From: Serpula lacrymans var. lacrymans S7.9
Lineage: Eukaryota; Basidiomycota; Agaricomycetes; Boletales; Serpulaceae
Assembly (NCBI RefSeq): GCF_000218685.1
Contig: NW_006763294.1
Span: forward strand, 2,242,126-2,306,125
Length of the DNA: 64,000 nucleotides
Reading direction: 5' to 3'
Positions 29,547 through 57,044 of this stretch are shown here, one piece after another. Position 1 is the first letter of the stretch, and each line of letters starts with the position of its first letter. Made by a program: the position numbers and the translations under genes. The notes beneath the pieces were generated by a model that saw only the letters and a list, made by a program, of their open reading frames with translations, was not told the DNA's origin and ran no database searches.

Positions 29547-30935
29547 TTTCTATCCGTTTCCATCGCTGATCCGTTGACCACCACGTGCCGCTGCTGATAT
29601 CAGCAAAGCCCTGGCAGCCGGTCCAAAATGGGCAAAAGGTCCATCTTTATGATGTCGATCTTCCATCATATACCATCAAAACATTGGTCGCTTGTCTCAC
29701 CTGGTTGGAGCGTAGGTGGGTAGTTTTTGAGCTGGAGAAGGTTCATCCCCTTGCGTCGCCCATGTACATTGCTGTCCCATTCACTTGGGTACACTTATCT
29801 TTCGTCCATTGTCTTCGCTACAGCTACAGCTACCACACGCTGCCTGGGACTCACTTGTTCCAAATTGGGACTACTCCTCTCCCTCCCTCATTTGACCAGG
29901 TGGTCCAACACAACCAATCCATTGGTAAAGCCATGGAACTGTCGGATTTGGACTAGGTGGTGGACTGGTGGCTCCAGTTTCTTTTTTTTTCAGCTGAACA
30001 TTCATTTACAGTGCGATTATTTTTGATTTTTGAATCATTTTTATGGACCCATATTTTTTTAGAATGCCTGACTGACAATAAAGGAACTGTGTTGATACTG
30101 ATATTTTTTTGCCTTGCCCTTTTTTTACTGCATCTTCCCATGACATCATGATTTTCTTGCTCTCTTTCTGCTATTGGACTTTACTTTATGGCTGTACAAA
30201 CCTGTGACAATACTTACACAGCATTCATTGTTCTATCCCTTTCTTTTCCTTATTTTGACGATCTTATCCTGTACTACCTACGCAGGATTTGTCAGCATAC
30301 ATTCCTTCCTTCATGTTTTTTCTCATTCTTTTTGCACAGCTATACTGTGTATAGCCTCCCTTTCTTTTACTATATAAACCCCCTGTATTCTACCTTGTAA
30401 AAAAAACAAGAACTCCAATGTAGACTTCTTCTCTAATCTGAAGTTCACTACTCTGCTACTTGTGATCCAGTGTGGTCACAAAAATTCCCACTGCCAACAC
30501 TGTTAACTGCTGTCATCGTCACTTGTCCCTTTGAAAAGTCATTGTCATCCCTTTTGATTAGAGTCCTTTTGAGCACTACAGTTTGTGCATCAGGAGCCTG
30601 CTATCACTGGGAACCTCGTCACCTCAATATCTTGTCGTTCTCCAACCTACCTTGTGCTATGATTAGCAAGGTAGTGCTTGTCCATACTCATCACTAAGCC
30701 CCTATCTTCTATAATTCAACTATCCCTCCTCCTCAAAAGCCACACCCATACATCCCTGGGTTTTACTTTGAAGGATCGTCATATGTACCACCCCACAAAC
30801 AACCAGAGCACCCACTGTTCTAGGAGGCAAAGCCCATAAACAAGTTCCGTGGAATCTGGGAGGATTGTATGTTAGTTCGTTTTGTGTGTGGTTCTCTAAC
30901 AACAATTCTCATCTTTGACACCGTTCACTGGGTAT
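29547..30935 (+). repeat. Repeat family A, copy 1
   Basis: It is closely similar to 40810-42172 and, inverted and internally deleted, to 47891-48744. It contains a frame conserved in all copies (VVFELEKVHPL to SFDQVV, stop at about 29956), an AATAAAGG at ~30080 and a TATATAAACCCC box at ~30371. It ends ATTCTCATCTTTGACA. The TATA box and size suggest a long LTR or non-autonomous LTR element, but the class is not established. Confidence 0.75.
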
Positions 30936-40376: not shown

Positions 40377-42175
40377 TGTCATGCACCAAAGTTGATTGGT
40401 AGCATGGACAGGTGTCAATAACAAAGCGAATATTCAAAAAGACTCGCCTTTGCGCCACACAGGCACAGTGCCACGTGCAATAGTAATTAATATTGCCTTT
40501 TTCAATCTTGTGGCTGATCAGCACCACCTCTATTAGGCAATCCAGTCACGCTCACCTTTGCTTTCCATTCAGTACTTTCCGTGTTTCGGCATTTTGGCAA
40601 CTTTTTGCGTTGCCACTGGCTACACATTGCATTGTGCCCTTGCCTTCATTGTTTCCCTTACTCCCCTTCCTTTGCCTAGCCCCACCATGGGCCCCTTCCT
40701 CTCCTTTTATTCTCACCTGACGGTCGTTTCTGGATCCCCATTCTAATCCACCTCTTCGTCACCTCCAGCCTCCTCCTCCTCATCTTCTTTGCTCCCCTAC
40801 CATTTCTGATGTCACCACTTCCTATCTGCTTCTATCGCCGATCTGTCAACCACCACATGCCACTGCTGATATCAGCAAAGCCCCAGCGGCATAGGGCAAC
40901 AGGTCCATCTTCATGATGTCGATCTGCCATCATATACTATCAAAACATCAGTTGCTCGTCTCGCCTGGTTGGAGTATGGGTGGGTAGTTTTTGAGCTGGA
41001 GAAGGTTCATCCCCTTGCGTTGCCCATGTTCATTGCTGTCCCATTCACTTGGGTACACTTATCTTTCATCCATTGTCTTCGCTACAGCTACAGCTACCAC
41101 ACACTGCCTGGGACTCACTTGTTCCAAATTGGAACTACTCCCCTCCCTCCCTCGTTTGACCAGGTAGTCCAGTACAACCAGTCCATTGGTAAGGCCATGG
41201 AACCGTCAGATTTGGACTAGGTGGTGGACCGGTGGCTCCAGTTTCTTTTTTTTCAGCAGAACATTCATTTACAGTGCGATTATTTTTGATTTTTGAATCA
41301 TTTTTATGGACCCATATTTTTTTAGAATGCCTGACTGACAATAAAGGAACTGTGTTGATACTGATAGTGTTTTGCCTTGCCCTTTTTTTTACTGCATCTT
41401 CCCATGACATCATGATTCTCCTGCTCTCTTTTTGCTATTGGACTTTACTTTATGGCTGTACAAACCTGTGACATTACTCACAGCATTCATTGTTCTATCC
41501 CTTTCTTTTCCTTATTTTGACGATCTTATCCTGTACTACCTACGCAGGATTTGTCAGCGTACATTCCTTCCTTCATGTTCTTTCTCATTCTTTTTGCATA
41601 GCTATACTGTGTATAGCCTCCCTTTCTTTTACTATATAAACCCCTGTCTTTTACCTTGTAAAAAAACAAGAACTCCAGTCCAGACTTCTTCTCTAAATCT
41701 CAAGTTCACTACTCTGCTACTTGTGATCCAGTGTGGTCACAATACTTCCCACTGCTACCACTGCTGTCTGCTGTCATTGTCACTCGTCATTTTTGAAAGT
41801 CACTGTCATCCCTTTTGATTAGAGTCCTTTTGAGCACTACAGTTTGTGCATCAGGAGCCTGCTATCATTGGGAACTTTGTCACCTCGTCACATTGTCATT
41901 CTCAAACCTACCTTATGCTACTATTAGCAAGACAGTGCTTGTCCATACTCATCACAAAGCCCCTATCTTTTATCATCCAACTATCCCTCCTCCTCAAAAC
42001 CCACACCCATACATCTCTGGGTTTTACTTTGAAGGATCGTCATATATATCACCCCACAAACAACCAGACCACTCCACTGTTCTAGGAGGCAAAGCCCATA
42101 CACAAGTTCCGTGGAATCTGGGAGGATTGTGTGTTAGTTTGTTTTGTGTATGGTTTTCTAACAGCATTTCTCATC
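40377..42175 (+). repeat. Repeat family A, copy 2 (full-length form)
   Basis: It begins TGTCATGCACC with the second tandem unit, continues through the conserved VVFELEKVHPL frame (40969-41220), an AATAAAGG at ~41341 and TATATAAACCCC at ~41633, and ends near CTAACAGCATTTCTCATC. It joins gypsy integrase coding sequence directly at about 42176. Start TG, end CA, a TATA box and a polyadenylation signal would fit a long LTR of about 1.8 kb, but no paired copy proves this. Confidence 0.7.
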
Positions 42176-42180
42176 ATTCA

Positions 42181-42522
42181 ACACCGGGACAGCGCATGGA
42201 CCGGCCTGGACCAATTATAGTCACCCAGGAAGGTGAAGAAGAAGTTGAAGTTGAACAAGTGGTGGATGCACACTTGAAGCGTGGAAAATTAGAGTTCCTA
42301 GTCCTATGGAAGGGCTATGGAGATGAGGACAAAATGTGGGAACCAGAAGCCCATCTGGACAATTCTTGCAATGCTGTTCGCAAATTTTATTCTAAGAATC
42401 CCTCAGCTCCTAGGAAGCTTAGAGGCATGGATTCAACACTTTTTAACTCCCTTTTTCAACTGATGCCCAAAAATTTAACTACCACCTCCGGTACTTGGTC
42501 TCGCCTGGAAGTTGAACCTTAA
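42181..42522 (+). pseudogene. Gypsy integrase C-terminus with chromodomain
   Basis: The fragment has a chromodomain (VEQVVDAHLKRGKLEFLVLW, then KGYGDEDKMWEPEAHL) and a tail ending SRLEVEP. It lacks everything upstream. A purine tract (AAAGGGGGGTAG) and an LTR follow at once, so this is the 3' end of a gypsy element. It may be the 3' part of the remnant at 37886-39796, but the joint is filled by family A. Confidence 0.8.
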
Positions 42523-46811: not shown

Positions 46812-47890
46812 ATGGCCCGTCAGCAAAAAATAGCAGCAAAATGTCCCTACTGAGTGTTGAAGGACCTGGAATACGAGAATAGGATACAGGCAGCGATAGA
46901 GGGCTATAAACGGGGGCTCTACAAGTTATATGCAGAGGCTGCAAGGTTAAAAAATGTGAGTGCTTAGATTTCTGATTGATTGATCAGATGAATGTGATCT
47001 GGAGTTTAGGTTGCCCGTCAAACACTTCATGATCAAGCGAAAGGAGTGCACAAGACATACCAACAAGGTCAAGAAAAGAAACAGCTCCTATCTGCAGCAG
47101 AAGAATCGGTTTTGCTCGATTGGACACAACACTATGACACCATGGCCAACCCCATGTATCCCAAGAAGCTTTGGTCGTGTGTGCATGATATGTTGGGAAA
47201 AATCCCTGGAAAACATTGGCACTACAGGTTGATTAGCCATAATCCATCACTTGTTCTCCGAAAGCCGCAGAAACTGGACCCGAAGAGAGCGAAGAACTTC
47301 AACCAGACAGTAGTGGCTGACTACTTTGCACAGCGAAAACAGTTGAATGATATGTATGGTGGGATTCCTCCGGAACATGACTGGAACATGGACGAGAAGG
47401 GGATTCAAATGGGAGGAGGCAGGAAAGGAGACGGGACAAAGTACTTTTATAATAGGAAGCAGAAGGGATCATACCGCATCTCAGACAACAATTTGGAGCT
47501 TGTTACGGTGATAGAGTGCATTAGCGCTGCTGGAGTGTTGATGAGGCCTGGTTCCGTGTTGAAGGAGGGGCCACTGCCTGATTTAAGTGCCGTCGAGGTC
47601 ATAGGAAGGTCTGTTTTCTCCAATCCTCTGCCCATATCATTTTACTAACCTCCTCTTCCAGTATATCCCATACAAAAACTGGCTGGACAAACCGTGGAAT
47701 ATGTGAGGAGTGGTTCAACAAGACATTTATCCCTGAGTCCCAAGTTTGCCGCATTGATGACAGGTCGGTTGTTCTTACTTTGTATGGCCATGACTCGCAT
47801 GAGCAACCTGTCCTTCAAGCTCTAGCTTATAAACACAGCATCATTATCTATCGCCTCCCATCAAAAACCACTCATAAATTACAGCCACTG
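46812..47890 (+). pseudogene. Pogo-like (Tc1/mariner superfamily) DDE transposase, truncated
   Basis: Exons 46812-46955, 47010-47608 and 47662-47890. The N-terminal HTH-like part (ENRIQAAIEGYKRGLYKLYA, then VARQTLHDQAKG) precedes the DDE core: HDWNMDEKGIQMGGG (first Asp), TGWTNRGICEEWFNKTFIP and YGHDSHEQP, where the family has DGHGSH. The second catalytic Asp is therefore replaced by Tyr. SKTTHKLQPL follows. There is a stop early in exon 1 (after AAKCPY), and the protein breaks off at LQPL where an inverted family-A repeat begins. Inactive. Confidence 0.88.
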
Positions 47891-48744
47891 TCAATGATGA
47901 GAACTGCTGTTAGAAAACCACACACAAAACAAACTAACACACAATCCTCCCAGATTCCACGGAACTTGTGTATGGGCTTTGCCTCCTAGAACAGTCTGGA
48001 TTTGAGTTCTTGTTTTTTTACAAGGTAAAAGACAGGGGTTTATATAGTAAAAAAAATGTAGGCTATACACAGTATAGCTGTGCAAAAAGAATGAGAAAGA
48101 ACATGAAGGAAGGAATGTACGCTGACAAATCCTGCGTAGGTAGTACAGGATAAGATCGTCAAAGAAAGGAAAAGAAAGGGATAGAACAATGAATGCTGTG
48201 AGTAATGTCACAGGTTTGTACAGCCATAAAGTAAAGTCCAATAGCAAAAAGAGAGCAGGAGAATCATGATGTCATGGGAAGATGCAGTAAAAAAAAGGGC
48301 AAGGCAAAACACTATCAGTATCAACACAGTTCCTTTATTGTCAGTCAGGCATTCTAAAAAAATATGGGTCCATAAAAATGATTCAAAAATCAAAAATAAT
48401 CGCACTGTAAATGAATGTTCTGCTGAAAAAAAAGAAACTGGAGCCACCGGTCCACCACCTAGTCCAAATCTGACGGTTCCATGGCCTTACCAATGGACTG
48501 GTTGTACTGGACTACCTGGTCAAACGAGGGAGGGAGGGGAGTAGTTCCAATTTGGAACAAGTGAGTCCCAGGCAGTGTGTGGTAGCTGTAGCTGTAGCGA
48601 AGACAATGGATGAAAGATAAGTGTACCCAAGTGAATGGGACAGCAATGAACATGGGCAACGCAAGGGGATGAACCTTCTCCAGCTCAAAAACTACCCACC
48701 CACACTTCAACCAGGCAAAATGAGTGACCGATGTTTTGATAGTA
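47891..48744 (-). repeat. Repeat family A, copy 3 (inverted, internally deleted)
   Basis: It is very close to copy 2 (conserved frame at 48459-48710 on the minus strand, TATATAAACCCC near 48040). About 390 bp corresponding to 41688-42081 is missing, with ACT at both ends of the deletion in copy 2. On the plus strand it starts TGTCAATGATGAG. It separates the transposase fragment from the SAP-type frame, and the intervening transposase C-terminus is lost. Confidence 0.85.
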
Positions 48745-48750
48745 TATGCC

Positions 48751-49811
48751 GACTGCCCAGTTTCTCACTCATCCTGAATTAAAGGCCGTGTTCGAACAGC
48801 AGGAGATCGAGCGGAAGGAGAAAGCCCACATAGACACAGAAAATGAGGCAAGTAAGCAGCAAGAAAACACCGCTCATAACACATGAATAACAATAGAGAC
48901 TGTGATGAAAGTCTTTGACAGATTGTAACGACCAAGAGTTAGTTACTCTGGCACACACAAGAACACACTATAAAGAAGATGTTGAGGGAGTGGCTACCCC
49001 TTAAGCTGCAGAGAGTTTGTTGGTATACAACAGGAGGACTCGCTAAGGAGTCTCCTGGATTTCTTGGGGTATATATACTAATACAGAGTGTTTGTACTTA
49101 TGTACTGTACAGTTGATAAAGTCAGTGGCTGATGATGTCATGGGGCCTAGCCCGCATGACCAGCTCCACTGTGTGAGAGAGTTGTATCTGAAATAAGAAG
49201 AAGGCAATGCGGCGCGAGAAAGAGGAGTTTGAACAAAAGGGGAAGTGCCGTGTGGCACCATGTGTGAAAGCTAAAGTGTACAAGGTTAAAGCGGAGAATG
49301 AAAAAGAAGGAAAGGTCCGAAAATTGTGTTATTGTAACACAGATCTCTTGCATCTTACAAGCGCAAGGAGGACCTCATTGTTATAGCCGGTGCTCTTGGT
49401 TTACCAATTGATGGGACAGTCAAAGCCCTCATTGAAAGGATCAAGTCTCACCTTCAAGGACATAAGGAGTTAGCGGATAACCCCCGGTTTGCTGGCCTTT
49501 TTGGCCATCGTGTTCAGGCCCCTGAGGGTTCTAGTCACTCCGGACAATCATCCCAATCACCCTTATATTCTAGTGTCAACTCATCTACTGCGTTTTCCCC
49601 CCAGTCTGTCCAGACTCCATATTTTTTGGCCACACAATCGCAATTTCCTGACCCCACATTTTACAACAGTTTCTCTGGCCCAGGCTGTAGTACTCCTGGG
49701 CCCTCATATAACTTCAATATCTCTGAGCGTGTTTTACCTCCCCCAACTGATGAAAATGGTGTGACAATTACATATTATAATGAGTTGGGTCAACCGTACT
49801 ATGTTTTGTAG
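48751..49811 (+). pseudogene. Transposon-associated SAP-domain protein, interrupted by a solo LTR
   Basis: The frame before the LTR (FLTHPELKAVFEQQEIERKE, a charged helix) and after it (SLASYKRKEDLIVIAGALGL, then VKALIERIKSHLQGH) becomes continuous (VFDRSLASYKRKEDL) when the LTR and one CAGAT copy are ignored. The second part resembles a SAP DNA-binding motif. The tail is Ser/Gln/Tyr-rich, ending LGQPYYVL. One in-frame stop (near 48882) precedes the insertion. SAP-type proteins often accompany DDE transposases in Agaricomycete repeats. Whether it was part of the pogo-like element is unknown. Confidence 0.6.
48924..49339 (-). repeat. Solo LTR of family B (416 bp)
   Basis: On the plus strand it runs from TGTAACGACC to TTATTGTAACA. 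It is flanked by CAGAT on both sides (48919-48923 and 49340-49344), the expected 5-bp duplication of a gypsy integrase. No internal region is present, so it arose by LTR-LTR recombination. Confidence 0.92.
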
Positions 49812-49975
49812 TTAAATATACTTTGAATCTGGTGAAACTGTTGTTTTGATTTTGAGTCAAGCATGAAAGCAATGCCTACTATTCTACTATTATTTCTTAG
49901 CAGTGGGACTTCGTCATTTTTTGAGGCTTTCCTCTGCCAGATCGGTGCTTCAATCCGGCATATGTGGCCTTAGTG

Positions 49976-50079
49976 TTAGTCTCGAGCCAGCCATTTTGGG
50001 AAGGCGCGGAATAAACCGTGCTGGAGCCACTTCCCAAACGTCTGGAGACATTTGATGGGCGACAAGTGCATCGTGTCAC
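49976..50079 (+). repeat. Left terminal inverted repeat, itself a hairpin
   Basis: It pairs with 55710-55811. Within the repeat, AGTCTCGAGCCAG and TTTTGGGAAG face CTTCCCAAA and CGTCTGGAGACA, so a single terminus can fold into an imperfect stem. Differences from the right terminus are mostly G/A and C/T. Confidence 0.8.
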
Positions 50080-50163
50080 ACCGGGACTTATTGCCTCTAT
50101 CATTTGATTATCTTATCTTATCTGTCGGTCCTTGTACATACTTATACAGTTTCTCCGAGTTGC

Positions 50164-52847
50164 ATTTTGTGATCAATGCTGGATAACATGAGTGAAGACC
50201 AAACATCCGATGACTCCCTCAGCTTCTCAGATGTCAATGAGGATACTGACTACAATCCTTTCATTGCTGATGGTTTGTTTGAGCCAGATTATGATCCACT
50301 GGCAGATAGCAACAGCTCGGAGTTCCCTTCATACACATCATCCCCCATTCAACTTGCCAACACTCACCGTTTAAAGGAGAACCTAACAGGAAGTCCCGCA
50401 GCCAAAGTTCGAGCTATCCTGGACTACATGAATTCAGTAGGCCTTGACTTACCATTATTTTTGGATTTACTTAGTTGGGATGATCACGAGTCTATCATTG
50501 ACACAAAAATCTGGTATGCAAGGACTTCGTTGATGGTCAGTGCTGAGCTTCCAGGGATTTTAAAGTGGTGGCACAAACCCCCACACACAAAAGGGACTCG
50601 CAATTCCCTTGCTCATGGAGCACAACTGGTGCTCGAAGAATTTTCCTTGTCATGTGTTGCAGACATACTCGAGGCTGAGCTGGAATCCATCAAGGACATG
50701 TGCTATTGTCCCCCAGAGGATGTTTCGGAAGAAGGCCTGACAAGCCTTTACATTGAAGACATATTGTTGAAACTGTGTAGTCCTGGTTTTGGAGGCACCC
50801 CAAAATTCTGAGCCTTGCTTCAGCGACTCAACAAAACAGCTGCACAAGAGAAACAAAACACTTTGAAGAATCCTGACTTGGTGCGTAGTACAATCATCCA
50901 AAGCTATTACTAACACTGAATTCCCAATCACCAGGTCAATATTTCTATTACATTTCAGATCATGTTCTCGCGCTCTCATCATCACAGCCACTGGCCAAAA
51001 ATGTTGACAACATTCCTTAAGTCTCAAGGCATCTCTGCAAAAAGCCTCGACCTCCTACGGACATTTTGCCTGACCATGAGCCATAAATGGTCTGTCCGGG
51101 CCATCAGTTCTATTTCTAAGAACAAGATGGATGAACTCTGTAAAATAATCCACATCCATCCCTTTGTGATATCTCACAACAACCTTAATATTCCCTTTCG
51201 TGTCTTTTCACAGCGAGTTGACAACAAAAGCCATTTTGATTCGGGAACTGCAGCTACCGTATTTTTACAACCAGGCGCTCCTCCAATTAAACCACTCTGC
51301 AACCGTACACTACAGGAGTATTGAGCAGCTGGACGGAAGGTTCCACTCACAGTGCAAGGCATCCTACTCCTTGAACAGGCTGCAGCCTCTTCTCGTTATT
51401 CCCGTGATCTCTACCATGTTCTTCAGTGGCTCATTACTTCACCGGAATTTTCTTTTGAAACATATCAACACTGTAATGATTCAGTGTTCAACCCATCTGC
51501 TCCTGTCCAAAGACTACCATCAGGCCAACAATATATCACAAAGCAGTACATGCTGGGAACAGTACATATTGAAGAAGCCAGCTACGAAGGCAATGAGATG
51601 CTTTTGGGCAAGTGGCTTTCCCAGCTTCGGCTGGACTCTCTTGACAAACAAAAGAAGACTGGTCTTGAACGAGTAATCCCATGGGTTGGTGACCAGCTAA
51701 CAGTGGAGCGGCTACGAGGACTTTTTAGGTTCTGTGCTCAGGATCACAATTCCTTTGACCGTTTGGACTGGCTCGTACCCATCTTTGGGTGGTTTCATTT
51801 ACAGATGGCATTTGCTAACTCACGGCACAAGCAGTACTTAGGGACTACAGCTGGCCGGGGCCTTATGCATACTTTCACTTTGCTCGAAAGAAAAGGACTG
51901 GGTTTTGTGCAAACCCGAGGGCCTTTCCATCAGAATCTGCACGATGCAATCACTCAAGTTGCTGAAACACACTTTTGCGCATGTTGGACAGTTGTGGGTG
52001 AAGTAGAGACCCTGGCACATCTCCGTTGCAAATCCCCAGGCCAACTTGTCCATCTTGCAGAAGAAATTTTGAAGACACTCGCATCTAGTACTGCCTTAGA
52101 GGCCATTCACCTGCAAAGCAAAAACACACAGGACGAAGTCTTGCGTCAGAGCATCCTGTGGAATTGTGATGTGTTGAGGTATATAGATTTAGAGAGGGCC
52201 ATGGAATGCGGTGATGTGGGAATAATGGAGGAGACTCTGCCCCATCTTTTGTATCGTTTTGCGGGAGGTAATAACAAAAGGTATACTATTGAAGTGCTAG
52301 AGCTACTACAATGTCTGCAGCACAAATGGCCACCAGAACTAAAGTACAGTTCTCTCGCATTTTGTTGGAATTTACTAACTTGTACTTGACAGAGACTTTG
52401 TTCTTCACAGTTGCTGGTTGATGAACACGACCGGCCACCCCCTCGGATTTCTGCCTATAGACAAAGGGCAGGAACATAATATCAAGGACACAAAGGTTAC
52501 ATTTGGAACTGGTGGCCCAAATGCATCTTGGGCTCTTATGAAGAAAACTTCCCCAGCCATTCCCGCACTCAGAGCTGTGCACAAGCATACAGAACTTCAA
52601 ATTCGGACGCTTTGACGAGGCCTACACCACTCTGACCCACTCAAGGAGAATGATATCGAGATCCTGCATAATGCATACATTGCCTCAAATATTCACACAC
52701 AGCAGGATGGACGAGAGGTGAAGACTAAAGCAGATGGGACTATGGATGTTGTGACAAAAGGATCTTTCAACATACTCACAAAAGGGACATTGGCAAGATG
52801 GTGGAATAATAGAAGTTATGTTCGGGCAACACAGGAGATATGGTAGG
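50164..52847 (+). pseudogene. DUF6589 domain protein gene of the element, with stops
   Basis: DUF6589 is an uncharacterised domain, common in Agaricomycetes as repeated genes. Start region 50164-50190 (MLDNMSEDQTSDD). Recognisable blocks are LPLFLDLLSWDD, FRVFSQRVDNKSHFDSGTAA, PLTVQGILLLEQAA, KQYMLGTVHIEEASYEGNEM, PWVGDQLTVERLRGLFRF, LVPIFGWFHLQMAFANSRHK, QYLGTTAGRG, CWLMNTTGHPLGFLPIDKGQ and EHNIKDTKVTFGTGGP, with an end block LARWWNNRSYVRATQEIW. Introns are plausible at about 50880-50960 and 52345-52391. In-frame stops at 50809 (after GTPKF), 51322 (before AAGRK) and 52613 fit TGG or CGA codons turned into TGA. The acidic N-terminus is probably disordered. The role is unknown; a transposase or cofactor is inferred from context only. 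Confidence 0.8.
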
Positions 52848-53363
52848 GTAGTGACAAATGTACTATAACGAATGCCAGAACGTATTACCTGACCCACGGA
52901 GGATGAAGGAAGTCCATGAGTGTATTGTCTGTCAGTAGCATGGGAGGGTGAACAACTCGAGGCTTGAGGTAAGCGGTACTGAGAGATATACCAGAATGTA
53001 TTACCTGACCCACGGAGGATAAAGTGAGTCCTTAGTATATCATCTCAAGGGGAGCAGCACTCTCGAACAAGAGGATAAAAGATAAATATATATAATCACT
53101 TGTTCTATATACAGTACTATAGTCCAAGGTATTGCACCTCCTGCTAGCCCTTGTAGGTCTCCGTATTGGGCTGAAAAGAACTGGCAAAAAATGAGGGAGT
53201 GAAAGGCGAAAACAACGGCACAGCAGTGGAGGATGAAGGCGTTAAGGTCCAGGTGGCATACAAAGTTTGAGTTGCGTCTAGCGGGACTAAGGGTGTGTTG
53301 ACATTTACTTGGAACCTTACAAGAAAGAGTATCAGTGGTATCAGCCGGTAAGTGAAGAAATAA
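52848..53363. other. Spacer between the DUF6589 and RecQ genes, with a duplicated motif
   Basis: Two copies of a motif containing GTATTACCTGACCCACGGAG (about 52883 and 52999) lie about 116 bp apart. No gene was seen. It should hold the 3' ends of both convergent genes. Confidence 0.55.
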
Positions 53364-55550
53364 CTTACTCTGAGGTACCAGGCAGTGGTACATTTTCTTT
53401 ACCACTTGCGCTGGAATTGCGGACTCGGTGTGAGCTTCGTTTCTGCACTTTCAGCTCCCTTCCTATAGCCTTCTTCTCCTCTTTCACGGCCTCCCTTGCA
53501 AGCTTCTTTGCTTGGCGTTTCTCGACTTTGGCCCCTTCACAAGACTCTCGCACTTTGTCGTCCAACTGCCTCACCAAGTCCAGAACCTCACCACCATATA
53601 CATCAACTAATGGCTATGAGGCCCCGAGAGATCCGCAAAGATTATTGATCGTTTTCCACAAACAATTAGAGGCTATTGATTTTGGAGTGAGATCGGGGAG
53701 AAGGGCGAGGCCAGTAAATGAGCAGTGGGGATAGTCACGCTGGCGGATCGTCACACGCCAATGGTCCAGAGCATCCTTGATGGTTTGGAGATGTTGGCCT
53801 GTGCGTTGAGTGAGTGGGGAATTCTGATCAGCAGTTTTCATCACACGCTTGCCCATTGCATTCTGTTCATGGGTAGGTGTGTCTTCCTGCTCCTTGTCGC
53901 TAGTTTTGGAGGATGTGTGAGCAGGACTGAGTGGAGGTAAAATAATATTGGAGGGCATAAGGCCCGTCGCAGTTCTGTCGCAGTTGTCACAGCAGACGCC
54001 GGTAGGTGCTAGGTTCAAACATCAGAATCTCACGCTGCCACAGAAAATGTGCAACCTACGTGTACGGCTGGGTGGATTATTGTAAAATGCATCTGCAATA
54101 TCACGCCGACAACCTGTGGTTTCAATCCAGGCTCGAAGAGGCTCTTCTATTTTCTTGCAGTACGTTGGATCTTTCTGTATTCCAATCTCGTGGTCTGAGT
54201 CTTCAAGCTCATCTTCTGACTCTAAGTTCTCTTCTCCAGTTCTGCCTTTCTTTTTTTTACTAACGCGTTGAAGCACTGACACTTCAACCATCATTATAGC
54301 ACGTCCTTGAAGACTGAAGTTGCGGACAGCTCGGCCTGCTCTTTGGAGCCATACTGACAGTGATGATGGGACTCCAAATTGGATCACCACCTCGACATCT
54401 GGTATGTCGAGTCCCTGTTTAATTATTAGACAAAGCAAGCTTATTAAATTGCTCCGAATGCTAACCATGCCACCTATTTTGGTCACAAACATAACCCTTA
54501 TTTTTCCTTCACAAAAGTCACGCAAGACAGTTTTCCTGGTGCGTGGCGAGCGCCTGGCATTCAAATAACTGATTTGACTCTTTAGTTGGTCAGATACAAT
54601 TCCATGGAGTCTCCGAAAGCCAGCCTGGGACTGACTAACAGTGTTAACAAAGATGAGTGCCCGTGGTATTTCATTGGCAGCCTGTGCATCTTTGACAATG
54701 AAATCAAGGGCCGAATAGTCTGTGGAGCCAGCGATGATGCAAAGCTCCTGCGTTACATTAGGTCGGTTGTTTCCCAAGTTCAAATGAAAGGATTTTGATG
54801 TGCTAATGTGCAGTGTTTTTTGAACCTCGGCCAAGACAGCAGGGGACATTGTAGCTGACGTTGCATATATAGGTGTGCCTAGAGGCACAAATGAACGGAG
54901 CCTATCTAATTTAGCATACACTGGCCAAAAGTCACCTCCCCACTGTGAGATACAGTGGGCTTCATCAACTATGTATCCAAGTACACGTTTCTGAAAAGCA
55001 GGTGAGCACAACAATGCATTGAATTGGGGGTTTTCAATTGTCAATTCTGGTGATGCTAACAATATTTGATATTTAAGGTCCTCGAGCTCCTACACATGCC
55101 GACGAGTTTAAAGCAACATAGAGACTCAAGAAATAGACTTACATTGTGTAAGTCTTGATTATATGTGTCTCCATTTACTGCAACTGACTGTATGCCCCAT
55201 GCACGAAACTGATCGGCCTGTTCCTCTTCTATAGTTTTCAACGGCGATATAACGACTGTCATGCCATCCTTCTGTATGAAGGATGGCATGGCATAAGCCA
55301 AAGTCTTTCCAGATCCTGTGCCAGCAATAATGGTGCAGTCGAGTCCCAAAGTAAAGGCCTCAGCAGCGTCCACTTGCCATGAATAGGGGGTGCGGCCATT
55401 GCATTGTTGGCGGACAAAATTTCGAAGTGATTCTTGTAAGTCTGCTTCTTGGCCTGCTGCTTCAGCTTTCTGACAAGCCTCTACAAGGTTGGTATAGGAT
55501 TTCTTTTTGATGGCTTCATGGGATAGATATTCTGTAGGGACAGTGACCAT
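53364..55550 (-). pseudogene. RecQ-family DNA helicase of the element
   Basis: Exons (minus) 55550-55143, 55089-54466, 54414-54060 and 54008-53614, all in phase, give about 593 aa to the first stop. Superfamily 2 motifs: AGTGSGKT (I), VVISPLKTIEEEQADQ (Ia), VDEAHCISQWGGDFWPVY (II), TPIYATSATMS (III), GGMGLDIPDVEVVIQFGVP (IV-V) and WLQRAGRAVR (VI). A Cys cluster (CRRDIADAFYNN, GVCCDNCDR) resembles the RecQ zinc-binding region. No HRDC domain was seen. After a TAG near 53614 the same frame continues with a Lys/Glu-rich helix (AKKLAREAVKEEKKA) down to 53364, so the true protein was probably longer. Cellular RecQ helicases are chromosomal repair enzymes. The location inside inverted repeats points to a transposon version. 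Confidence 0.85.
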
Positions 55551-55709
55551 TTAATGAAGCATGGAGAGTGACGAATAATTGAATGATCATTGAATATGGG
55601 ACTCGTCAATATTTTCTGATTTCTGTACTACTAAGCATAATTACATCATGATAATCGTAGTCTAAAAGCGGCAATCGTTGCCTAAAAGAGTCGAGTGTCT
55701 GTGACACTG

Positions 55710-55811
55710 TGACTCGATGCACTCGTCCTAAGACGAAAGTCTCCAGACGTTTTGGGAACCTCTCAGCGCGGCTTATCCCGCGCCTTCCCAAAACGGCTGG
55801 CTCGAGACTAA
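55710..55811 (-). repeat. Right terminal inverted repeat, itself a hairpin
   Basis: In reverse complement it starts TTAGTCTCGAGCCAGCC. Its hairpin is better preserved than on the left: GCGCGG and CCGCGC enclose GATAAG, and GTTTTGGGAA faces TTCCCAAAAC. Confidence 0.82.
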
Positions 55812-56154
55812 TGTCCTGCATAGATGGACGGCCATTTCTTCCGCGATGTAGTCCTGGATTACATATCAACGACCCCCGGATGCATCCATGTCGCCGAGGC
55901 ATGTGCTTGGAGCATTGGAAAGTGCTGTAGAAGTACAATGTTAATGATGTAGCATAGTAGCAGCAAGAACGGTGCAACGGTTTGGTTTGGTCAAGTTTGT
56001 TCGAGTTCAACGTGCGAATGTCTTCAATGCGGTTCGTATCTCATTATCACTGACACTAGCTCCAGTGCGTATACTACTTCGGGCACCTTAGAAGAAGTAA
56101 ATTCAACCAGTTCACCTAGAAGTACCAGATAGTTCAGTGAATATCGAACCGTGG
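55812..56154. other. Intergenic, nothing recognised
   Basis: About 340 bp between the transposon terminus and the next gene. It presumably includes that gene's promoter. Confidence 0.45.
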
Positions 56155-57044
56155 ATGAACAAGCTCAAGAAGCAACAGTCGGTGGCTAGCTCAGCTCAAC
56201 CGCTCAGTGGCTCGAGTAGACACCCCAGTTCTCCTACTACGACCGCAATATACAATGGAAACCAAAATGCTTATACATATAGAAGTGGATCGACGGCCAC
56301 AACTCAGCCATCTATTCCAAGCTCTAGTGCTATTGTCATGGATCTCGTGCCTAGCAAAAATATCGCAGAGGTCTGGAATGCTGCAAGTTCCCCGGCGTCG
56401 ATGAAGCCACGAACTTACGTCGAGCAATACTGGGCTGCAAGAGCTCTGACAGCGGAAACTATGCTAACCGCACGGGCTTCACACCAACGTGAGCTAGCAA
56501 GTCTCAAATTCTCGGAAGAATCAAAGCGCTCGGTGAGTTCATGTGCTCTACTCACATGCTGTTTCTCTCACCGACAACCAACCTGGGCTTCGTGCAGCGA
56601 GAAATAGCACTTTTGGTGCGGGCTCACGAGACCAGACAAGACAAACTTGAGAAATGTGTAGTAAGTCCAAGTTTAGGTCATATCCATTTGATCTATATCA
56701 CGAAGGTACATGTTTAGGTTGCTCTCATAGCGTGCATCATGATACTAGCTGGTCTGGTCACATATATGATGATGAAATCAGCTAGTCACGTTTCCGCGTC
56801 TGCCTCTTGGTGGCCTTCCCCTTCCCACTTCACGATACCAATTTTGTCCCCTTTTACTAACGTGGTAGGTGCCTATCCTTTTGGGATGGGGTATTTTTGT
56901 TTTACTCACCCCTACAACGTTTACGATGACTCTCAGGTGGAGCAAGAAACCAGTGTTGTGGGTTCGAAAACGGTGGCAACTATTGTCGTTGTCCTTGGTG
57001 GTTTGGCGTATGCGATATTTCGACACTGGTTCGGACAAAGATAA
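56155..57044 (+). CDS. Small membrane protein of unknown function (231 or 255 aa)
   Basis: Exons 56155-56532, 56598-56660, 56718-56864 and 56937-57044, in phase. The N-terminal ~110 residues are Ser/Thr-rich. A helical part follows (YVEQYWAARALTAETMLTAR, SHQRELASLKFSEESKRS). Two membrane spans come next, VALIACIMILAGLVTYMMM and VATIVVVLGGLAYAIFRHW, the last near the C-terminus (FGQR). Segment 56865-56936 has GT...AG borders but is also 72 nt long and open, so it may be retained. Start taken at ATG 56155. I do not recognise the family. Confidence 0.65.

Follow-up and report, generated by a model that had tools for sequence, protein, structure and literature searches.

AcademH DNA transposons were reportedly described by Kojima in 2020. 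The excerpts of published work on which we draw throughout tie AcademH and AcademX to helicase and nuclease, with duplications of 9 or 10 bp for AcademH and of 3 or 4 bp for AcademX (PMC10045372), give low copy numbers for AcademH in Basidiomycota, Ascomycota, and Mucoromycota (PMC10799480), and report PF00270 or recQ_fam domains in fungal Academ copies, which annotations often present as host genes (PMC6416283). A further excerpt presents KolobokH as a fungal DNA transposon with a DDE transposase and RecQ, and Kolobok as marked by TTAA duplications and by a C/DxxH motif between the second D and the last E (PMC9587614). Here, we analyzed a stretch of 64,000 nucleotides from Serpula lacrymans var. 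lacrymans S7.9 (contig NW_006763294.1, positions 2,242,126 to 2,306,125), which as a whole is called the window and whose contig bears the label C5. Within it, an element of 5,834 bp (window positions 49977-55810) has long inverted ends that enclose two convergent genes, a DUF6589 gene on the plus strand and a RecQ helicase gene on the minus strand. We put at about 0.82 the probability that this element is a copy, now decayed and probably recombinant, of a DNA transposon of the cut-and-paste type that most likely belongs to the AcademH lineage, with DUF6589 as its DDE transposase and the RecQ helicase as a co-inherited partner.

The DUF6589 gene (50176..52846) matches the PF20231 profile with an E value of 1.7e-93 and reads as exons at approximately 50176-50880, 50935-52343, and 52393-52846, the start and splice sites having been placed by eye. 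The helicase gene (53365..55550), whose introns were also placed by eye, has DEAD and Helicase_C domains, and Walker A (GTGSGKT), DEAH, and motif VI (QRAGRAVR) can be read directly. Its sequence matches the solved Bloom (BLM), Q1, Q5, WRN, and RecQ helicases (best, 3.6e-13). These domain and sequence matches confirm the convergent pair named in a first-pass annotation of the window, and the inverted termini of about 104 bp that it had drawn around both genes are also real. They are made up of an outer block (49976-50023 and 55764-55811, 48 nt, 92% complementary) and an inner block (50033-50080 and 55708-55755, 48 nt, 77% complementary), the total size being that of both blocks together. Relatives with a perfect 9-bp duplication begin at TAG, and the outermost T and A (49976 and 55811), which had been counted among the letters shared by the very ends, are therefore flank. 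After this correction, the left terminal inverted repeat begins TAGTCTCGAGCC and spans 49977..50080 on the plus strand, and the right one spans 55708..55810 on the minus strand, as supported by the inverted-repeat comparison, a left-end search, and the starts of the relatives. When the genome was searched with the left end, 16 matches were obtained at an E value of 5e-8 or better, including the window element's own two ends, and this recurrence rules out chance palindromic repeats as the ends. Since in-frame stops are found in both genes, three in DUF6589 and at least one in the helicase gene, near its 3' end, the window copy is decayed and dead.

The two-gene mobile system that the first-pass annotation had proposed is borne out by duplications flanking relatives of the element and by the empty sites of one of them. 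In 12 elements both ends could be read; five of these have TAGTCT-type ends, and the ends of the other seven are of a second type starting CAGACTCC. Outside this count fall 9 of the 16 left-end matches, for which no second end was available, and, of 18 loci compared with up to 6 mismatches in 20 allowed, 10 that had one end and 1 that had neither. A 9-bp flank duplication, with 7 to 9 of the 9 bases agreeing, was found in 10 of the 12. It was perfect in six (C8, C10 short, C10 long, C1 at 4.43 Mb, C7, and C17), agreed at 8/9 in three (C11, C1 at 4.19 Mb, and C1 at 0.53 Mb) and at 7/9 in one (C2), and was absent from two, the window copy (3/9) and one C3 element (1/9). When left flanks were paired with the right flanks of other elements (132 pairings), agreement reached at most 6/9, and no other duplication size came close to 9 bp among the 3 to 13 bp tried for five elements and the 7 to 11 bp tried for seven.

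For the element on C1 at 4.43 Mb (L066), the joined flanks with one 9-base copy match uninterrupted sequence at C1:1245557 (89%) and C3:1579983 (81%), and there are three more uninterrupted matches at 70 to 77%. In the two aligned empty sites, an extra stretch lies to the left of the joint, at a distance of at least 33 bases, and none lies at the joint. The L066 flanks (approximately C1:4426873-4426992 and C1:4432944-4433073) belong to a multi-copy repeat whose other copies are not interrupted. When the flanks are joined, one reading frame contains a single stop and, by eye, resembles a transposase gene.

Four short elements of 0.8 to 1.2 kb (L057-L060) have CAGACTCC ends and duplications of 9 of 9 bases at C7:2150586-2151362 and C17:527124-528280, 8 of 9 at C1:528977-529955, and 7 of 9 at C2:1861233-1862241. 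They are miniature relatives of the C10 long element (C10:432954-440372), whose ends are the same. Because the short elements carry these same ends and duplications, we infer that the machinery moves gene-less derivatives in trans. One C10 element with a perfect duplication has kept most of the helicase gene and lost nearly all of DUF6589. Locus L065 (C3:1070286-1075852, 5.6 kb) has CAGACTCC ends and a helicase match, with no PF20231 match listed inside and no duplication.

Co-occurrence of the two genes elsewhere, which the first-pass annotation had suggested checking along with empty sites and the DUF6589 structure, was found within this genome as well as across species. The PF20231 profile gave 108 matches in the genome, or 74 clusters after merging, and two helicase queries gave 61 clusters. 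Of the latter, 31 have a DUF6589 cluster no more than 5 kb away, in convergent orientation in 29 cases and in divergent orientation in 2, while 2000 shuffles, in which sizes were assumed for five contigs (C4, C9, C12, C13, and C24), gave a mean of 1.9 linked clusters and a maximum of 8. The other 30 helicase clusters have no DUF6589 match within 5 kb. For the comparison across species, we used 110 DUF6589 and 115 helicase proteins taken from the best 120 of 207 DUF6589 relatives and the best 120 of 1150 helicase relatives, proteins without a species name (10/120 and 5/120) being left out. Among these best-matching relatives, 35 of the 110 DUF6589 proteins, in 26 species, share a contig with RecQ, a shared contig being inferred from the same species and an exactly equal size, which on longer contigs does not imply adjacency. 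No equal sizes joined two different species in this comparison, and two DUF6589-helicase pairs have consecutive gene numbers, on contigs of 6,315 and 85,921 bases. The distances of the paired proteins correlate with an r of 0.837 over 33 of the 35 pairs (two Crassisporium rows with one helicase common to both were dropped). This value was reached in 0/5000 free and 0/5000 within-genus permutations, and in 5/5000 permutations within species, where about 4.3 are expected from redrawing the true pairing. Judged from these protein distances, the DUF6589 and RecQ genes evolve as pairs.

A structure prediction of high confidence gave DUF6589 an RNase H-like DDE transposase fold with an all-helical insertion, nearest to Hermes, the P element, and RAG1, at 7 to 11% identity in the aligned rows. 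A putative catalytic triad, D310/D481/E725, is conserved, with the helical insertion before the last E. On this model, DUF6589 is very probably an RNase H-like DDE transposase, which favors the first of the two roles, transposase or replication initiator, that had been suggested for it. A further aspartate, D267 (numbering of DUF6589 protein P0001), is present in 98/98 sequences but is not part of the RNase H core as predicted. The DUF6589 alignment had 272 pattern matches to viral contigs, with no relative among them, and a single chance match to PDB sequences (E value, 0.4); no NCBIfam match was found. Pfam lists PF20231 as a function-unassigned family, and the word DUF6589 was not found in the literature collection searched, papers outside that collection being unsearched. 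The assignment of DUF6589 to a transposon thus appears to be unpublished within that collection.

Compared by description only, the element resembles AcademH in that it encodes a helicase, in its fungal hosts, in the 9- or 10-bp duplication (PMC10045372), and in the recQ_fam domain (PMC6416283). The excerpts on AcademH leave DUF6589, the convergent layout, and the co-evolution of the pair unmentioned, and they give no difference between AcademH and the element described here. For the DDD/E transposase of AcademH, we have the predicted RNase H-like fold with its triad, for the element-encoded helicase the RecQ gene between the ends, and for the duplication the 10 of 12 elements, with the window copy not among them. 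Because a helicase and 9- to 10-bp duplications are published marks of AcademH and fungal Academ copies carry recQ_fam, the DUF6589-RecQ element is probably not a new class but of the AcademH type already described (PMC10045372 and PMC6416283, as excerpted), and the candidate uncharacterised transposon class of the first-pass annotation is not supported.

It is unlikely, in our view, that the DUF6589 elements are instead a distinct DDE superfamily, whose RecQ was acquired independently of the AcademH lineage and whose duplications are convergent, since duplication size, helicase, and fungal range all fit AcademH as described in the excerpts. In favor of such an origin, KolobokH also carries RecQ (PMC9587614), so that the helicase is not confined to a single kind of DNA transposon, the proposed kinship of DUF6589 with AcademH is drawn from descriptions of the elements, and Pfam assigns the family no function, nor is the word DUF6589 found in the literature searched. 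KolobokH itself, also fungal and combining a DDE transposase with RecQ (PMC9587614), is a very improbable identity for the window element. Its TTAA duplication contrasts with the 9-bp, non-TTAA duplication found here, C/DxxH occurs, at its best column, in only 13/98 DUF6589 sequences, and RecQ is here a separate convergent gene rather than one downstream of the transposase domain; KolobokH was rejected on the duplication type and the near-absence of the motif. The nuclease of AcademX is XPG, and the five XPG_I matches in the genome include none that, by coordinates, is near a DUF6589 cluster; AcademX was rejected on this result and on the 9-bp duplication. Helitrons have an HUH nuclease and neither inverted ends nor a target duplication, in contrast to the long inverted ends, 9-bp duplication, and predicted RNase H-like transposase seen here. 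The hAT (Hermes), P, and RAG1/Transib elements have an RNase H core with a helical insertion before the last E, as predicted for DUF6589, but they are not known to encode a helicase, and their duplications differ in size from the 9 bp found here, being 8 bp for hAT and P and 5 bp for Transib. An 8-bp duplication, the size made by hAT, is unsupported (0 to 3 matches in the 11 of 12 elements scored).

Two findings weigh against the interpretation in the first-pass annotation, of which a frequent, co-evolving RecQ partner is supported. In this genome, no RecQ match lies closer than 5 kb to 43 of the 74 DUF6589 clusters, and one or both genes are missing from some copies of the ends. As for the window copy, no 9-bp duplication was found at it, and its two flanks do not fit together. 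Taken alone, this copy would suit a RecQ gene that was picked up by chance, or one that belongs to the host and was caught between two repeats with no relation to each other, an explanation that is scarcely credible in view of the linkage and fixed orientation in the genome, the contig sharing in 26 species, and the co-evolution. Four unlinked DUF6589 loci were sampled (L074-L077), with reading frames listed for two of them. At these two (L074:2716-3192 and L076:2786-3388), alignment by eye places GDG at the site of GDQLT in the paired type, and no helicase frame was recognised among the open reading frames listed. Since GDG replaces GDQLT and a helicase frame was not recognised, these genes may belong to another subfamily or be decayed. 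Self-comparison found no inverted ends at L074-L076, and at L077 it found inverted repeats only beside the DUF6589 gene.

If the element moved as an AcademH-type transposon, DUF6589 would bind the ends, cut them at TAG/CAG by a chemistry suggested by its predicted fold, and join them to the target with a 9-bp stagger, giving rise to the observed duplications. Our favored guess for the RecQ helicase is that it unwinds DNA at the excised ends or at the strand-transfer junction, which would allow gaps to be copied and closed, and the same machinery could act on the short gene-less elements. There is an outside chance that the DUF6589-RecQ elements are a transposase superfamily of their own, with the helicase integral to transposition and the two proteins co-adapted; with the helicase, a DDE cut might then be channelled into replication or the copying of gaps. 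For the AcademH-type element that we prefer, the analysis offers a likely function for a function-unassigned Pfam family that matches this single genome 108 times. It also turns the reason why a DDE transposase retains a RecQ helicase of its own into a question open to experiment, for which the 33 co-evolving pairs provide a choice of material. Among the best 120 of 207 relatives, DUF6589 members are named hypothetical proteins in protein listings; mobile genes are thus counted as host genes in annotations.

The left flank of the window copy (49339..49976, plus strand) is a piece of a different repeat, which the genome search matched at full length in 5 other places. Its copies at C14 and C18, the two that were read past the insertion point, continue uninterrupted with sequence that does not match the right flank of the window copy (55811..56230); in the genome search, this right flank matches itself only. 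The left and right ends of the window copy therefore probably stem from different insertions that were joined by recombination or another rearrangement, which would account for the missing duplication, and the copy is probably chimeric. Another copy of the window element (L042) lies about 48 kb downstream in the opposite orientation, with 97.7% identity over 4,268 aligned bases.

Transitions make up most of the differences among the copies compared, for which window positions 52961-55810 were set beside the corresponding parts of L041, L042, L043, and L028. In the C11 copy, the most diverged, 66 of the 111 private differences are C>T or G>A, and 34 of these 66 are at CpG, which makes up 15% of C sites. 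Because of this excess and its enrichment at CpG, the divergence of the copies looks like methylation-linked decay. Pieces of one multi-copy repeat, which is also found at C14, lie in the window at 29555-30923, 40828-42188, 47889-48748, and 49339-49976, with a weak SAP-domain frame at 49338-49811.
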